Shown: piece by piece, positions 21,169 through 37,913 of the stretch
Layout: every line of letters starts with the position of its first letter
Position numbering within the stretch: the first letter of the stretch is position 1
Assembly: GCF_016863295.1 (NCBI RefSeq)
Contig: NZ_BOOP01000042.1
Span: forward strand, 1-64,000
Length of the DNA: 64,000 bases
From: Planotetraspora phitsanulokensis
GTDB taxonomy: Bacteria; Actinomycetota; Actinomycetes; Streptosporangiales; Streptosporangiaceae
Direction of reading: 5' to 3'
Made by a program: the position numbers and the translations under genes
Notes under the pieces: generated by a model
Told to the model about the DNA's origin: nothing
What the model saw: the letters and a program-made list of their open reading frames with translations, nothing else
Database searches by the model: none

Positions 21169-22122
21169 TCAGGCGAGACGATGCCGCCCGGACGTCCGCG
21201 CCGGGCGGACACCACCCTCGAACGGGATCGACTCGAGCTGCTCCATCCGGGCCCGCCGCGCCGAGACCACACGCGTGGCCAGCACCGCCGACAGGAGGAG
21301 CGCCGCCGTCAGGGCCGTTCCCGCCGCGTCGTACGGCTGGGACGGACGCACCGGATCGGACTTCAGCCCGCCCTTGAGCCCGGGGATCTCCTGGTTGCCT
21401 GGCCACAGGAGGGGGATGGCGCCGTCCTCGTCGAGGTTCACACGCGGGTCCGGCGCGACGTCCTTGCCGCCCGCCGGGGTGAATCGCGGCAACTCGATCG
21501 TCCGGGCCGGTTCGGATGGAAGCGTTCCCGCGGGCGTCCTGGCCGGGGGCCGGTCCGCGGGCCGAGGCTTCGCGGGCGGCTTCGCCGGCGGCGGCGCGGC
21601 CTGCTCCCCGTCGCAGTCGCCGCCGAGGACCGGCAACTCGATGCACGCCCCCGGGGTCGGCTCCGCCCCCTCGCCGGGCGTGCCGCCGCCGGATCCACCG
21701 GAGCCCGAGCCCCCCGACCCTCCGGAACCTCCGGACGTGCCGGTCAGCGGGTCCGTCACCTTCTTGACCGTTCCCCCCACCACATCGACGGTGGAGTCGA
21801 CGGTGTCGTCGACCGCCTCTCCGACCCCGCTGACGGCGCCGCCCGTCCCTTCCGTCACCCCGCCGACCACGTCGTCGACGCCCTTCGTCACGGGTGCCGT
21901 CAGACCGCCCGTCGCACCGTCGACCACGTCCGTCACCCCGTCGACCGTGTCGCCCACGCCGCCGAGGATCGAGCACAGGCCGCCCGTCACCGAGGAGATC
22001 AGGCCGCTCCCCGTGCAGTCCATCGCCTGCGCCGGTTGTGCCGCCACCAAGGGAATCCCACCAGTGAGAGCGAACGCCAATGCCCCGGCGGATATCGCGG
22101 AGGCATTACGTGCGATCCCCAT
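21169..22122 (-). CDS. Secreted low-complexity surface protein with C-terminal membrane anchor
   Basis: This is an unrecognised 317-aa protein. It has a Sec signal (cleavage near AAQPAQA), a region rich in Val, Asp, Gly and Thr with repeated D-G/D-V units (residues about 45-125), a Gly/Ser linker, a Pro-rich stretch with Cys pairs (GACIELPVLGGDCDGE), and a single hydrophobic segment near the C-terminus (TALTAALLLSAVLA) followed by Arg/Lys-rich residues. No LPXTG is seen. The layout suggests a protein anchored in the membrane or wall and spanning the peptidoglycan. The ATG at 22122 has GGAAGGGGG upstream. Function unknown; it is not a chaplin. Confidence 0.6.
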   Translation of the reverse strand: MGIARNASAISAGALAFALTGGIPLVAAQPAQAMDCTGSGLISSVTGGLCSILGGVGDTVDGVTDVVDGATGGLTAPVTKGVDDVVGGVTEGTGGAVSGVGEAVDDTVDSTVDVVGGTVKKVTDPLTGTSGGSGGSGGSGSGGSGGGTPGEGAEPTPGACIELPVLGGDCDGEQAAPPPAKPPAKPRPADRPPARTPAGTLPSEPARTIELPRFTPAGGKDVAPDPRVNLDEDGAIPLLWPGNQEIPGLKGGLKSDPVRPSQPYDAAGTALTAALLLSAVLATRVVSARRARMEQLESIPFEGGVRPARTSGRHRLA

Positions 22123-22242
22123 CTGTCCCCTTCCGTCCCACAAACTTCGTCTCGCGCTACTCTTGCCACTCTTCGCCGGAGCACCAAGTTATGCAGCACC
22201 AAGTTGCGATTCGGTATCGATGCGTGATACGTGAGGCCGTCT

Positions 22243-22619
22243 CTCGTTTTTGATTGCCGCGCCTCCGGCGCGGCGGGCTCGGGGCGCCCTTTAGGCCGGG
22301 ACTTCCCTCGTCACGTCCTCGCTGCGGGCGTTCCTCAGTCCAGCTCCCGGCCGCGCCCCTCGCATGATCCTGGAGCTCGATCCCCCCGGAACCCATTGCA
22401 AACGGGTCACGAAGACCTGCCTGCGGTGCGCAACCGTCACGCGAGGGGCGCGGCGGTGTCTGGACTGAGGAGAGAGTGGGGAGCGAGGAACGAGCGACCC
22501 CGAACGACGAGGGAAGACGCCGCCAAAAAGGGCGCCCCGAGCACGCGCGAGCGGAGCGAGCGCCATCAAACACTGCGCCCCGAGCCCGCCGGACCGGAGG
22601 GCCGGCAATCAAACACGAG
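22243..22619. repeat. BIME-like structured inverted-repeat element
   Basis: The 500-nt spacer 22123-22624 holds no convincing gene but a long two-armed inverted repeat. The outer 45 bp (22243-22287 against 22575-22619) agree at 40 positions, and each copy carries its own GC hairpin. The right arm has an additional related unit at 22532-22574. Inner pairs follow: 22302-22312 with 22506-22516, 22334-22343 with 22460-22469 (both perfect), and 22351-22367 with 22437-22453 (one mismatch). The centre (22368-22436) is unpaired or locally folded. The arrangement resembles paired REP sequences (BIME). It ends 5 nt before the aldo/keto reductase stop. The remaining part, 22123-22242, shows nothing recognisable beyond the promoter region of the secreted protein. 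Confidence 0.75.
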
Positions 22620-22624
22620 CGCAA

Positions 22625-23560
22625 TTAGACACTCACGTCGTCGAGGGCGTCGCGGATCTCGCGGGGGAGGGTCAGGTGCTCGGCCTCGAGCACGCCGAGC
22701 AGTTGGGCGTGGGTGCGGGCGCCGACGATGGCCGACGACACGCCCGGGCGGTCGCGGACCCAGGCGAGGGCGACGGCGAGGGGAGACACGCCCAGGCCAT
22801 CGGCGGCGGTGGAGACGGACTCGACGATGCTGCGGCCGCGTTCGTCGAGATAGGGCCGGACGAACTCGGCGAAGTGCGGGGTCGCGGCCCGGGAGTCGGC
22901 GGGGATCCCGGTGCGGTACTTCCCGGTCAGCACGCCACGCCCGAGCGGCGACCAGGCCAGTACGCCCGCCCCGACGTGGTCGGCCGCGGGGAACACCTCC
23001 ACCTCCGCCTCGCGGGCCAGGAGCGAGTATTCGACCTGGGCTCCCACCAGGGGTGCGCGGGACTCGCCCGCCCGCTGCCAGACCGCCGCGGCCGCGAGCT
23101 GCCATCCGGCGTAGTTGCACACCCCGGCGTATGCCGTACGGCCCGTGGAGACGGCGTGGTCGACGGCGGCGAGCGTCTCCTCCAGGGGGATGCGCGGATC
23201 GAACGCGTGCATCTGCCACAGGTCGACCTCGTCGAGGCCCAGCCGGGCGAGCGAGGCGTCGAGCGCCCGGATGAGGTGGCGGCGGGAGCCGTCCGCGCCG
23301 CCCTCGGAGGTCAGGACCGCCTTGGTGGCGATCACCAGTTCGTCACGGGGGACCACGTCGCGGATCAGCCGGCCGATCAGCCGCTCGGCGTCGCCCCCGC
23401 CGTAGACGTCGGCGGTGTCGATCAGCGTGCCCCCGGCGTCGGCGAACGCGGTGATCTGAGCCGTGGCCTCCTCGGCGGACGTGTCGCGGGCCCAGGTCAT
23501 CGTGCCGAGGCCGATGCGGGACACGGTCAGACCGCTGCGCCCGACAAATCGCTGATCCAT
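22625..23560 (-). CDS. Aldo/keto reductase
   Basis: This 311-aa NAD(P)H-dependent oxidoreductase adopts the (beta/alpha)8 aldo/keto reductase fold. The catalytic tetrad is visible as Asp and Tyr in DTADVYGGG, Lys in ATKAVL, and His in WQMHAFD; the cofactor-binding end reads SSAIVGARTHAQLL. It is most like the general bacterial subgroup annotated as general stress protein 69/YajO-like reductases; the substrate is unknown. Its ATG lies 9 nt after a TAGTCT hexamer on the minus strand and lacks a ribosome site, so the transcript is probably leaderless or nearly so. It is divergent from uppP with only 35 nt between start codons. Confidence 0.9.
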   Translation of the reverse strand: MDQRFVGRSGLTVSRIGLGTMTWARDTSAEEATAQITAFADAGGTLIDTADVYGGGDAERLIGRLIRDVVPRDELVIATKAVLTSEGGADGSRRHLIRALDASLARLGLDEVDLWQMHAFDPRIPLEETLAAVDHAVSTGRTAYAGVCNYAGWQLAAAAVWQRAGESRAPLVGAQVEYSLLAREAEVEVFPAADHVGAGVLAWSPLGRGVLTGKYRTGIPADSRAATPHFAEFVRPYLDERGRSIVESVSTAADGLGVSPLAVALAWVRDRPGVSSAIVGARTHAQLLGVLEAEHLTLPREIRDALDDVSV

Positions 23561-34048: not shown

Positions 34049-35448
34049 GGCTCGTGGTGGTGGGCAACGGGATGGCCGGGTCACGCCTCGTCAGCGAGGT
34101 GCGCTCGCGGAGCCGGGACGTCCGGATAGCGGTCTTCGGGGCGGAGGCGCGGCAGCCGTACAACCGGGTGCTGCTGTCCAACGTGCTGGCGGGCACCTCC
34201 ACCCCCGACCAGGCCCGCCTGGTGGACCCCGCCTGGTACGGCGAGCACGACGTGACCGCGCGCCTGGGGGTCCGGGTGACCGCGATCGACCGGGATCGCA
34301 AGGCGGTCCTCGCGTCCGACGGGACGCGTGAGCCGTACGACGTGCTGGTGCTGGCCACCGGCAGCGAGCCGGTGGTGCCGCCGATCCCCGGAGCGGAGCG
34401 CGCGATGCCGTTCCGGACCCTGGACGACTGCGATCGGATCAGGAACGCGGCGACGTCGGCGCGTGGCGTGGTGGTCGTCGGAGGCGGCCTGCTGGGCATC
34501 GAGGCGGCACGCGGACTCGCCGGGCGGGGCGTTGCGGTGACGCTGCTGCACCTGGGCGATCACCTGATGGAGCGGCAACTCGACGCGGAGGCGGGCCTGG
34601 TCCTGCGGCAGACCCTCGGGGCGCTCGGCGTCCGGGTGCGCACCGGAGTGACGGTGAGCGCCGTACACGAGCACCGGGTGGACCTGTCCACGGGCGAGTC
34701 GATGGACGCCGACCTGGTCGTCCTCGCGTGCGGCGTCCGGCCGGTGGTCGGCCTCGCCCGCGACGCCGGGCTGGAGGTGGACCGCGGCGTCGTCGTCGAC
34801 GACGAACTGCGCACGGACGATCCCGCGATCTTCGCGATCGGGGAGTGCGCCCAGCACGCCGGCATGGTCTACGGGCTCGTCTCGCCCGCCTGGGAGCAGG
34901 CGGCCGTCGCCGCCGACGTCATCACGGGGGCCGACCGGACCGCGCGCTACCGCGGATCTCGCATGGTGACGCGGCTCAAGGCCAGGAGCGTCGAACTGGC
35001 GGCGATGGGGGAGACCCACCTGACCGACGAGCAGGCGGAGATCGTCAGCTTCAGCCACCACAGAAACGGCACCTACCGCAAGCTCGTCATCCGGGACGGC
35101 CGGCTGGTCGGGGCGATCCTGCTGGGCGAGACGCCGGCCGTCGGCACGCTGACCCGGCTGTTCGACCGGGGAGGACCACTCCCCGCGGATCGGGCCGGGC
35201 TGTTGTTCCCCGGCGTCACAGCCGATGTCGCGGTGGCGCAGAGCCCGGTCAGGATGCCCGACTCGGCGCAGGTCTGCCACTGCAACAACGTGACGAAGGG
35301 CCAGATCAGGGCTTGCTGGGAGGCCGGCGCACGGGATCTGCCGGCCGTGACGGCCGCGACGGCGGCCACCACCGGATGCGGCGGCTGCCGTGACGCGGTG
35401 GAAGGAATCGTCGGGTGGTTGTCGGAGCAGGAAGGGGTAAGCGCATGA
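34045..35448 (+). CDS. FAD-dependent oxidoreductase with C-terminal BFD [2Fe-2S] domain
   Basis: This 467-aa protein probably feeds electrons to the nitrate reductase. It has an FAD/NAD-binding pyridine nucleotide-disulphide fold (VVVGNGMAGSRLV at the start, VVVVGGGLLGIEAARGL for NAD) and a C-terminal BFD-type iron-sulfur domain with CHCNNVTKG and CGGC. It looks like the first half of NirB and is a counterpart of the NasB/NasC electron-transfer subunits. Start GTG overlaps the reductase stop (GTGA); its own stop overlaps nirB (ATGA). Role inferred from domain content and position. Confidence 0.88.
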   Translation: MRLVVVGNGMAGSRLVSEVRSRSRDVRIAVFGAEARQPYNRVLLSNVLAGTSTPDQARLVDPAWYGEHDVTARLGVRVTAIDRDRKAVLASDGTREPYDVLVLATGSEPVVPPIPGAERAMPFRTLDDCDRIRNAATSARGVVVVGGGLLGIEAARGLAGRGVAVTLLHLGDHLMERQLDAEAGLVLRQTLGALGVRVRTGVTVSAVHEHRVDLSTGESMDADLVVLACGVRPVVGLARDAGLEVDRGVVVDDELRTDDPAIFAIGECAQHAGMVYGLVSPAWEQAAVAADVITGADRTARYRGSRMVTRLKARSVELAAMGETHLTDEQAEIVSFSHHRNGTYRKLVIRDGRLVGAILLGETPAVGTLTRLFDRGGPLPADRAGLLFPGVTADVAVAQSPVRMPDSAQVCHCNNVTKGQIRACWEAGARDLPAVTAATAATTGCGGCRDAVEGIVGWLSEQEGVSA

Positions 35449-37913
35449 CCTCCGCACCCGGGACCCGGGTCGTCGTCGTGGGATGCGGGCCCACCGCGCA
35501 CCGGCTGGTCGAAACCCTCGTCGCCCGCGGATTCCCCGGGCCGATCACCGTCTTCGGGGAGGAGCCGCGGCCGGCGTACGACCGGGTCGCGCTCACCTCG
35601 TACCTCCAGGGCAGGAGCGCCGAGGACCTCACCTATCCCGTCCCCGACGGCGTCACGCTCCAGCTGGGCAGCAGGGTGACCGGCATCGACCGGGACGGCC
35701 TCACCGTCGTCACGGACACGGGACAGGCCGAGCCGTACGACGTCCTGGTGCTCGCCACCGGATCGGCGCCGTTCGTGCCGCCCGTGCCGGGGCGCGACCT
35801 GCCGGGTTGCTTCGTGTACCGGACGCTCGACGACCTGGACGCGATCAGGGATGCGGCGCGGGAGGCCACCTCCGGGGTGGTCGTCGGGGGAGGGCTGCTC
35901 GGCCTGGAGGCCGCGGACGCCCTGCGCGGGCTCGGGCTGCGCACCCACATCGTCGAGATGAGCGACCGGCTGATGCCCCGGCAGGTCGACGCGGGCGGCG
36001 GCGCCGTGCTCCGCGGCCACGTCGAGGCGCTGGGCCTGGCCGTCCACGCGGGCAGCGGGGTGCGGGCGATCGAGCCGGGCCCGGACGGCAGGGCCGCGCG
36101 GCTGGTGCCGCCGCAGGGCGACGCGATCGAGGCCGAGGTCGTGGTGTTCTCCGCGGGAATCCGGCCTCGCGACGAGCTGGCCCGCTCGTGCCGGCTGGAC
36201 GTCGGCGAGCGCGGCGGCATCGTCGTCGACGCGGGGATGCGGACCTCCGACGAGCACATCTACGCGATCGGCGAGTGCGCGCTCGCGGGCGGGGCCGTGT
36301 ACGGCCTGGCCGGGCCGTGCTTCACCCAGGCCGAGGTCGCCGCCGACCGGATCATGGGCGGGACGGCGTCGTTCGAGGGCGCGGACATGTCCACGAAGCT
36401 CAAGCTGCTCGGCGTCGAGGTGGCCCAGTTCGGGGAGATGTCCGGGGCGCTCGACGTGACCTACCTCGACCCCGTCGCGGGCGTCTACAAGAAGCTGTTC
36501 GTCAGCGACGACGCCAAGACGCTGCTCGGCGGCATCTGCGTGGGCGACGCGGCGCCGTACGACACGTTGCGGCCGTTCGTCGGCAGGGCGCTGCCCGGGT
36601 CCCCGAGCGACCTGCTCTTCGCTGGCGCCGGCGCGTCCGTCGAGCTGCCGGACGACGCGCAGGTCTGCTCCTGCAACAACGTCAGCAAGGGCAAGGTCCG
36701 CACCGCCATCGCGGAGGCCGGGCTGACCGACGTTCAGGGCGTCAAGGACTGCACGCGCGCCGGGACCACCTGCGGCAGCTGCGTGCCGATGCTCAGGCGC
36801 ATCCTCGCCGAGTCCGGAGTCGACGTCGGGAAGGGACTGTGCGAGCACTTCGCCCTCAGCCGGGCGGAGCTGTTCGACATCGTCCTCGTCCGCGGGATCA
36901 CCACGTTCTCCCAGCTCGTCGCCGAACACGGCACGGGACGCGGCTGCGACGTCTGCAAACCCGTCGTCGCCTCGATCCTGGCGTCGCTCGGCAACGGCCA
37001 CATCCTCGACGGCGAGCAGGCGGCGCTGCAGGACACCAACGACCACTTCCTGGCCAACATCCAGAAGAACGGCACCTACTCGGTCGTCCCGCGCGTCCCC
37101 GGCGGGGAGATCACGCCGGACAAGCTCATCGTCATCGGCGAGGTGGCCCGCGACTTCGGGCTCTACACGAAGATCACCGGGGGCCAGCGCATCGATCTGC
37201 TGGGCGCCCGCGTCGAGCAGCTGCCGGGCATCTGGGCGCGGCTCGTGGCGGCCGGGTTCGAGTCCGGCCACGCGTACGGCAAGGCGCTGCGCACCGTGAA
37301 GTCCTGCGTCGGCTCCACCTGGTGCAGGTACGGCGTGCAGGACTCGGCGGGCCTGGCGGTGGCCCTGGAACTGCGCTACCGCGGCCTGCGCTCCCCGCAC
37401 AAGCTCAAGGCCGCCGTCTCCGGCTGCGCCCGCGAGTGCGCGGAGGCGCGGTCGAAGGACTTCGGGATCATCGCGACGGAGCGGGGCTGGAACCTCTACG
37501 TGGGCGGCAACGGCGGGTTCACGCCCCGGCACGCCGACCTGCTCGTCGCGGACCTGCCCGCCGACGACCTGGTCCGGGTCATCGACAGGTTCCTGATGTT
37601 CTACATCCGCACGGCCGACCGGCTCCAGCGGACGTCGGCGTGGATCGAGGGGCTCGAAGGCGGCCTCGACTACCTCAGGGCGGTCGTCCTGGACGACTCC
37701 CTCGGCATCTGCGCGGACCTCGAGGCCCAGATGGAGCGGCACGTCGAGTCCTACGTCGACGAGTGGCGCGCCGCCATCGAGGACCCCGACAAGCTCCGCC
37801 GTTTCGTCAGCTTCGTGAACGCCCCCGGCATCCCCGACCCCACGATCGTGTTCGAGACCGAGCGTGACCAGATCCGGCCGGTGCCGGTCGTCCTGGAGGG
37901 AGTACGCGCATGA
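35445..37913 (+). CDS. nirB: Nitrite reductase large subunit NirB
   Basis: NirB is the 822-aa siroheme/[4Fe-4S] subunit of NAD(P)H-dependent assimilatory nitrite reductase, making ammonium. Domains in order: FAD/NAD-binding, two BFD-like [2Fe-2S] regions (CSCNNVSKGKV with CGSC; GCDVCKPVV), ferredoxin-like half-domain, then the siroheme domain with TVKSCVGSTWCRYG and SGCARECAEA giving the four cluster cysteines, and NLYVGGNGG. The start at 35445 has GGAAGGGG. It is coupled to the genes on both sides by 4-nt overlaps. Confidence 0.95.
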   Translation: MTSAPGTRVVVVGCGPTAHRLVETLVARGFPGPITVFGEEPRPAYDRVALTSYLQGRSAEDLTYPVPDGVTLQLGSRVTGIDRDGLTVVTDTGQAEPYDVLVLATGSAPFVPPVPGRDLPGCFVYRTLDDLDAIRDAAREATSGVVVGGGLLGLEAADALRGLGLRTHIVEMSDRLMPRQVDAGGGAVLRGHVEALGLAVHAGSGVRAIEPGPDGRAARLVPPQGDAIEAEVVVFSAGIRPRDELARSCRLDVGERGGIVVDAGMRTSDEHIYAIGECALAGGAVYGLAGPCFTQAEVAADRIMGGTASFEGADMSTKLKLLGVEVAQFGEMSGALDVTYLDPVAGVYKKLFVSDDAKTLLGGICVGDAAPYDTLRPFVGRALPGSPSDLLFAGAGASVELPDDAQVCSCNNVSKGKVRTAIAEAGLTDVQGVKDCTRAGTTCGSCVPMLRRILAESGVDVGKGLCEHFALSRAELFDIVLVRGITTFSQLVAEHGTGRGCDVCKPVVASILASLGNGHILDGEQAALQDTNDHFLANIQKNGTYSVVPRVPGGEITPDKLIVIGEVARDFGLYTKITGGQRIDLLGARVEQLPGIWARLVAAGFESGHAYGKALRTVKSCVGSTWCRYGVQDSAGLAVALELRYRGLRSPHKLKAAVSGCARECAEARSKDFGIIATERGWNLYVGGNGGFTPRHADLLVADLPADDLVRVIDRFLMFYIRTADRLQRTSAWIEGLEGGLDYLRAVVLDDSLGICADLEAQMERHVESYVDEWRAAIEDPDKLRRFVSFVNAPGIPDPTIVFETERDQIRPVPVVLEGVRA

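Follow-up and report, generated by a model that had tools for sequence, protein, structure and literature searches.

The element behind the gene at 22625..23560

The window, i.e. the whole stretch of 64 kb analysed here, contains an element of 377 nt (22243-22619) that lies between a minus-strand open reading frame ending at 22625 and another at 21169-22143. The first of these (22625..23560) I take, from its sequence, to be an aldo/keto-reductase-like gene. An earlier, sequence-only reading of the locus had described inverted arms, and these are indeed present: 22243-22287 and 22575-22619, 45 nt each, pair at 40 of 45 positions (89% complementary). Among the 25 inverted repeats listed of the 66 in 64 kb, this is the sole long one near 90%, and the two longer pairs outside the element are 70-75% complementary and 3-24 kb apart. 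The compensatory change noticed between the arms, unit positions 18 and 28 being C-G in the left copy and G-C in the right, was confirmed by eye, and the related block thought to adjoin the right copy was recovered as a 72% direct repeat (22518-22560 vs. 22561-22603). Pairing of inner blocks between the arms, also suspected, is reflected in three further inverted matches inside the element (22350-22367 with 22437-22454, 94%; 22332-22343 with 22460-22471, 100%; 22287-22312 with 22506-22531, 81%). As had been suggested, the 377 nt were folded, and both strands are far more stable than shuffled sequences, at -236.7 (+) and -252.5 (-) kcal/mol (z = -10.7 on each strand, with 0 of 100 shuffles folding as low).

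The unit that the sequence-only reading put forward is a real repeat, but it comprises only the outer hairpin and one stem arm. What actually repeats is the entire half-element (left, 22246-22363; right, 22441-22573), and the 377-nt element consists of two units of about 115-140 nt of one structured repeat family, placed head to head. On its pyrimidine-rich strand each half-element has the order P1 hairpin, outer stem P2, inner stem P3, TTCCCTCGTC, apical hairpin P4 and TCCTCAGTCCAG. The features are the following:

22246..22363, + (the pyrimidine-rich strand): unit A, in the order tail, P1, P2, P3, motif, P4, motif, P3', P2'; stem limits by eye
22256..22274, +: P1, small hairpin of unit A (the GC hairpin of the sequence-only reading), with the loop C-GGA-G on the opposite strand
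22277..22287, +: left arm of P2 of unit A, GCTCGGGGCGC, with partner 22353-22363
22294..22302, +: left arm of P3 of unit A, with partner 22343-22352; covariation
22303..22312, +: conserved motif TTCCCTCGTC of unit A
22313..22331, +: P4, apical hairpin of unit A, a short copy of 19 nt
22332..22343, +: conserved motif TCCTCAGTCCAG of unit A
22364..22440, no strand: spacer between the head-to-head units, different in sister species
22441..22573, -: unit B, with its pyrimidine-rich strand on -; stem limits by eye
Within unit B, -: motifs at 22460-22471 and 22506-22515, P4 at 22472-22505, P1 at 22545-22563 (of the GCGCGAGCGGAGCGAGCGC type)
22575..22619, -: extra outer module (P2 arm, P1 hairpin, tail) adjoining unit B, which is the right arm of the sequence-only reading
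22625..23560, -: presumed aldo/keto-reductase-like gene, just behind whose stop codon the element starts; synteny

A hammerhead-like ribozyme, suggested by CTGAGGA beside GGGAA, was considered and dropped, as its core does not fit. Elsewhere in the window, at 34330-36746, adjoining stretches are alike (direct repeats of 77-79% at 34330/35730 and 35248/36639), perhaps as tandem paralogues.

A dispersed family with a nested hairpin

The sequence-only reading was to be given up if its unit were confined to this locus and its hairpins did not covary. Searches of the own genome and of relatives found the unit elsewhere in both, and the hairpins covary (see below), so that this objection falls away. 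With an E cut-off of 10, BLAST of the region against the genome that contains it returned 73 matches, in which one place is often represented by both of its strands; 13 places were read. The exact pattern of the two motifs occurs as 15 units in this genome, six of which form three head-to-head pairs, the rest being single; it is found in 16 of 41 genomes, with the reversed pattern, as a control, giving 0 in all 41. By BLAST, 20 of 60 genomes are positive, i.e. the own genome, 4 of 4 from the same genus, 15 of 32 from other genera of the family and 0 of 23 outside the family. A scan of one genome per species yielded at least 119 stretches with the pattern, and the list of named genera is a lower bound. 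The 80 listed with names fall in genera of the Streptosporangiaceae and Thermomonosporaceae, in Kribbella, Virgisporangium, Actinophytocola and Gordonia, and in some metagenome bins, one of them of Spirochaetaceae. The family is thus wide but patchy across the actinobacteria, with members in Streptosporangiaceae, Actinomadura and relatives, Kribbella, Virgisporangium and Actinophytocola.

Several observations were made in passing. Units or outer modules sit at contig ends (L017, L011, the start of G000:C27), as is expected if repeats break the assembly, and copy counts are therefore lower bounds. Tandem arrays with a period of about 115 nt occur at L101-L104 and L032 (G009), versus the head-to-head pairs of the window's genus, and in Thermocatellispora (L153) an open reading frame runs through repeated units, whose translation would be a repeated peptide. 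Two viral contigs (L228, L229) have one exact pattern match each, while a distant-mode search of a plasmid collection with 81 bases of unit A gave no match. The Spirochaetaceae metagenome bin (L180), far from the actinobacteria, holds one two-motif match with a short P4, which may be a CGTC-type REP or a binning error.

In 58 units from many genera, standard pairs fill 90.4% of the cells of P3 and the base of P4, compared to 67.2% after shuffling. The covariation score is 0.567 vs. 0.173 in shuffles, none of 500 of which scored as high, and slid versions of the test reached at most 0.118; covarying hairpins, as anticipated from the arms alone, are supported. The nested hairpin is under selection, its stems changing with compensation around two kept motifs of 10-12 nt, although the invariance of these motifs in the 58 units is in part due to the units having been picked by them. 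In a half-site check in one Kribbella genome (G062), all 34 half-sites were found to be in full units, 33 of these being exact and the other carrying one change in its partner motif.

The two strands are not equivalent with respect to folding. Over 289 unique units, P3 on the purine strand has 118 G.T vs. 57 A.C cells, some of the eight positions leaning the opposite way, and P4 has 459 G.A of 1391 cells and no C.T, under a scoring that favoured G.A. A good C-GNA-G hairpin is present at P1 in 224 of the 289 units, and inside the stem of these, with equal scores for G.T and A.C, I counted 63 G.T, 6 A.C, 131 G.A and 3 C.T. A count at fixed stem length gave the opposite wobble bias (161 A.C, 92 G.T) because it ran past the stem. 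Of 80 sampled units, 78 with RNA and 77 with DNA parameters fold to a lower energy on the purine strand, and these observations point to the purine-rich strand as the folded and recognised form. Since GNA loops occur in stable DNA mini-hairpins, single-stranded DNA is the likely form; RNA is the alternative, since the better-folding strand does not tell the two apart.

At the window site, G002 and G003 have the full pair and G001 and G004 a half or remnant with changed flanks, whereas inspection by eye revealed no unit in G009 and G036, and the sequence taken from G030 stops short of this position. The orthologous copies vary in their spacer and hairpins, with P1 of unit A being of one hairpin type in G000 and of another in G002. 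At a second site, presumably the prs-rplY interval as judged from the gene sequences, 11 genomes were searched and 8 read (G036 did not align; G011 and G020 were not read). G000 has the unit, G003 an altered form of it, G002 just P1 and the tail, and G004 a version lacking the P3/P4 hairpin; no unit was seen in G001, G009, G013, G028 and G030. A clean empty site for a copy of the window's genus was not found at this interval, sister species having remnants and other genera nothing. In G001 the interval (L330) holds another repeat family, with several inverted and direct copies like GTGATCATGCAGAA(C/G)TTC, in the place where sister species have the hairpin unit.

The copies read in the window's genus lie between genes. 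According to a crude gene caller, 6 of the 13 units read in the window's genome are at most 40 nt behind the stop codon of the upstream gene, and 0 of 13 have a gene start at the right end, the nearest being 65 nt away.

Start codons as insertion sites in Kribbella

Kribbella genomes hold from 1 to 56 exact units. The Kribbella units follow a start codon (RTGRC) immediately on its 3' side and themselves end in ATGAC, so that the gene keeps a start. The unit reads as a leader of about 40 codons, whose TGA stop overlaps the new ATG. I examined all 33 exact units of G062 (31 loci) for an open reading frame of at least 100 codons, or open to the end of the fetched stretch: in 31 of 33 it begins at the RTG of the unit's right end, and 30 of 33 are at starts with the codon-position GC pattern of a real gene, the exception among the 31 being L278. 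As the control frames also give open reading frames (+1 0/33, +2 11/33, antisense 9, 16 and 9), their length alone is not specific, and it is the GC pattern that adds specificity. Single units were found at nearly all G062 places read. Among 81 unique Kribbella units, the RTG at the right end is present in 76 and absent in 5, and in 60 of the 65 with RTGR[CG] on the left the spacing is 2 mod 3 without a stop, which makes the leader stop overlap the new start. The length of P4 leaves the same remainder mod 3 in 81 of 81, four copies differing by 9 or 18; a unit outside this set (G065:C2:944476) is 1 nt shorter.

In order to judge the excess at starts, RTGRC was counted in 26 Kribbella loci (217 kb, units masked) with a crude gene caller that overcounts non-coding DNA, giving 72 occurrences at starts (253 genes) and 301 outside coding sequence. 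On the assumption that every non-coding site is equivalent, about 19% would be expected at starts, vs. the 30 of 33 observed in G062. Real targeting of start codons in Kribbella, beyond mere tolerance, is likely, with two reservations: non-coding DNA is overcounted by the caller, and part of the excess could come from selection against damage to promoters. Insertion at start codons is seen in Kribbella only; outside this genus, the right end of a unit resembles its left flank only weakly (shared words average 4.33 vs. 4.01, a value reached by 1 of 200 permutations).

The same Kribbella sites are filled in some genomes and empty in others, an empty allele being found at five of seven sites tested. 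Locus L280 carries three units. Of nine other Kribbella genomes, eight lack the unit at its site 1901 (the ninth did not align). At site 1000 seven are empty, G061 is filled and G060 has a 12-nt footprint, and at site 2862 three are empty and six did not align. At site 1901, the empty form (G063) reads CTGATGGC followed directly by GACTATCGCG, and the filled form reads CTGATGGC, the unit ending in ATGAC, and CACGATCGCA: the insertion is 3' of ATGGC, and ATGAC was brought by the element. Site 5338 of L347 is empty in 7 of 7 genomes, and the filled gene begins M-T-R-E-A-F-L-V, as it does in four of the seven empty ones (G062, G063, G064, G066; translated by eye). Both site 1901 and site 5338 fit an insertion that follows a short target on its 3' side and leaves no evident duplication, although a duplication followed by substitution may be an alternative at these sites. 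At site 5403 of L350, whose unit lacks the RTG at the right end, five of seven genomes are empty, one is filled and one not aligned, with the filled form being 120 nt longer. No empty allele was found at L350 site 2360, which aligned in 0 of 7 genomes, nor at L347 site 5472, filled in G062 and not aligned in the other six.

In the literature searched I found no account of insertion into start codons, nor of a repetitive element at Kribbella start codons, and the letters of the motifs were not found linked to these bacteria in titles and the beginnings of abstracts. As far as these searches reach, insertion into start codons is the new part of this family.

Mobility and comparison with known repeats

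RAYT transposases had been proposed as movers of the element. A search for the Y1 domain (Y1_Tnp, PF01797, E <= 0.001) does not support this, with no match in the window's genome and none in 15 of 19 further genomes (9 of 9 Kribbella, G002-G004, G036, one Virgisporangium and one Actinophytocola); the remaining four, G001, G009, G011 and G030, do have matches. None of the 14 neighbour clusters of largest spread is a transposase-like family, the largest being, to judge from its sequence, presumably an ABC-transporter ATPase. An autonomous copy was sought through half-sites, and none was found in G062. In G060 there are 16 half-sites vs. 16 exact units, and in G063 28 vs. 25, where six places were read and each is full-unit-like, some with a shortened P4.

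Dispersed, folded into a compensated nested hairpin and present or absent at the same Kribbella sites, the family behaves like a small mobile repeat of the single-strand type. I consider it probable that two copies of a small structured mobile repeat, non-autonomous and facing each other head to head, make up the element. In Kribbella this repeat inserts at start codons, and it would be moved by a non-Y1 enzyme acting in trans. The enzyme would recognise the folded purine-rich single strand, and the target may be picked by its likeness or pairing to the element's own end. The copy pair in the window would be an older insertion behind a gene, with an effect that is presumably at most that of a 3' hairpin. 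More tentative is the proposal of a mobile class that targets start codons, in which the end of the folded strand would pair with RTGRC, insert 3' of it by means of a non-Y1 enzyme and restore the ATG, the stop-overlapping leader keeping the host gene translated.

Alternatively, the units could be a structured RNA or leader element (attenuator, terminator or 3' stabiliser), kept for a function in the mRNA and spread by copying. The strong covariation, the excess of G.T over A.C on one strand, the Kribbella units directly at starts with the frame kept and the 6 of 13 units close behind stop codons in the window's genome (crude gene caller) are in line with this. However, the mRNA in Kribbella carries the pyrimidine strand, which is the one that folds less well, units are present or absent at orthologous genes, and both orientations occur within the window element; Rfam has no match for it at the gathering score, a permissive search of 22150-22700 giving only three sub-threshold matches (E 1.6-5.4). 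I regard the RNA explanation as unlikely. Still less probable is a true REP/BIME family moved by a RAYT, a Y1 HUH enzyme, that was missed by the assemblies or lost. Head-to-head pairs, tandem arrays, intergenic sites and GNA-loop hairpins would all be expected of such a family, and four genomes do have Y1_Tnp matches, yet insertions differ between Kribbella species in which, as in the window's genome, no match was found. Moreover, GTAG is not a fixed tag, since among 289 units just 45 contain it anywhere on the purine strand and 10 on the pyrimidine strand, and the unit is far larger than a REP of 20-40 bp. An ordinary MITE of a classical DDE insertion sequence would likewise be short, palindromic, multi-copy and polymorphic in its insertions, but single units, when inspected by eye, have no terminal inverted repeats, there is no duplication of the target at the clean empty site (the left ATGGC being native and the right ATGAC from the element), and in G062 the half-sites are all in full units, with no longer copy having that end found there; this origin is very improbable.

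To return to the mobile repeat, insertions that differ between species without a Y1 match, a defined target and empty sites make the mover of such repeats a testable question, and the two fixed motifs provide a sequence handle for finding the partner protein. For a mobile element, entering start codons while leaving the gene readable would be an uncommon means of avoiding harm.

The BIME-like character ascribed to the element holds with regard to a dispersed structured repeat with covarying hairpins, partly in head-to-head pairs, but not with regard to movement by RAYT. As in REP/BIME elements with a GTAG tag, small multi-copy intergenic hairpin palindromes are found, some head to head, and such palindromes in inverted pairs are present in the window's genome. 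Unlike these, the family has a unit of 115-140 nt with a nested structure, compared to 20-40 bp in REPs, and no Y1 match was found in the window's genome or the nine Kribbella genomes searched. IS200/IS605 elements and their non-autonomous relatives resemble the family in inserting 3' of a short target without evident duplication, in an element end that resembles the target, in hairpins near the ends and in a guide-like pairing (the guide idea being from PMC8266576); in the present family, inspection by eye suggests that a single arm, GTCAT, has the potential to pair with the two ATGAC copies. Unlike these systems, the family is without a Y1 match in the window's genome and the nine Kribbella genomes searched, and it is classed neither as REP/BIME nor as derived from IS200/IS605, because the Y1 enzyme was not found.

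Further likenesses are with the CGTC-tagged REPs and the Rickettsia palindromic elements, which, in PMC3733652 and PMC10969869, have CGTC before a hairpin, a CCA-like tail, head-to-head dimers with no dedicated transposase reported, and some copies read inside genes. In the present family CGTC precedes P4, in units that were selected by that motif. Dimers occur in the window's genus, with no transposase-like cluster among the 14 shown, and G062 places have mostly single units. A CGTC REP has a stem of 8-9 bp with A-T at the first two positions, whereas P4 of the family is mostly G-C (first pair G-C in 46 of 58 units, second C-G in 49 of 58), and because of this difference in stem composition the family is not classed as a CGTC REP. 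It also differs in having the CGTC tag on the strand opposite the GNA loops, the extra stems P1-P3 and the insertion into start codons. 'Actinobacteria', 'Kribbella' and 'Streptosporangium' have 0 occurrences in the main text of PMC3733652. CGTC-type repeats were described in that paper as mostly head-to-head dimers that lack a dedicated transposase; they are the nearest known kind, and the family presented here bears on what moves them.
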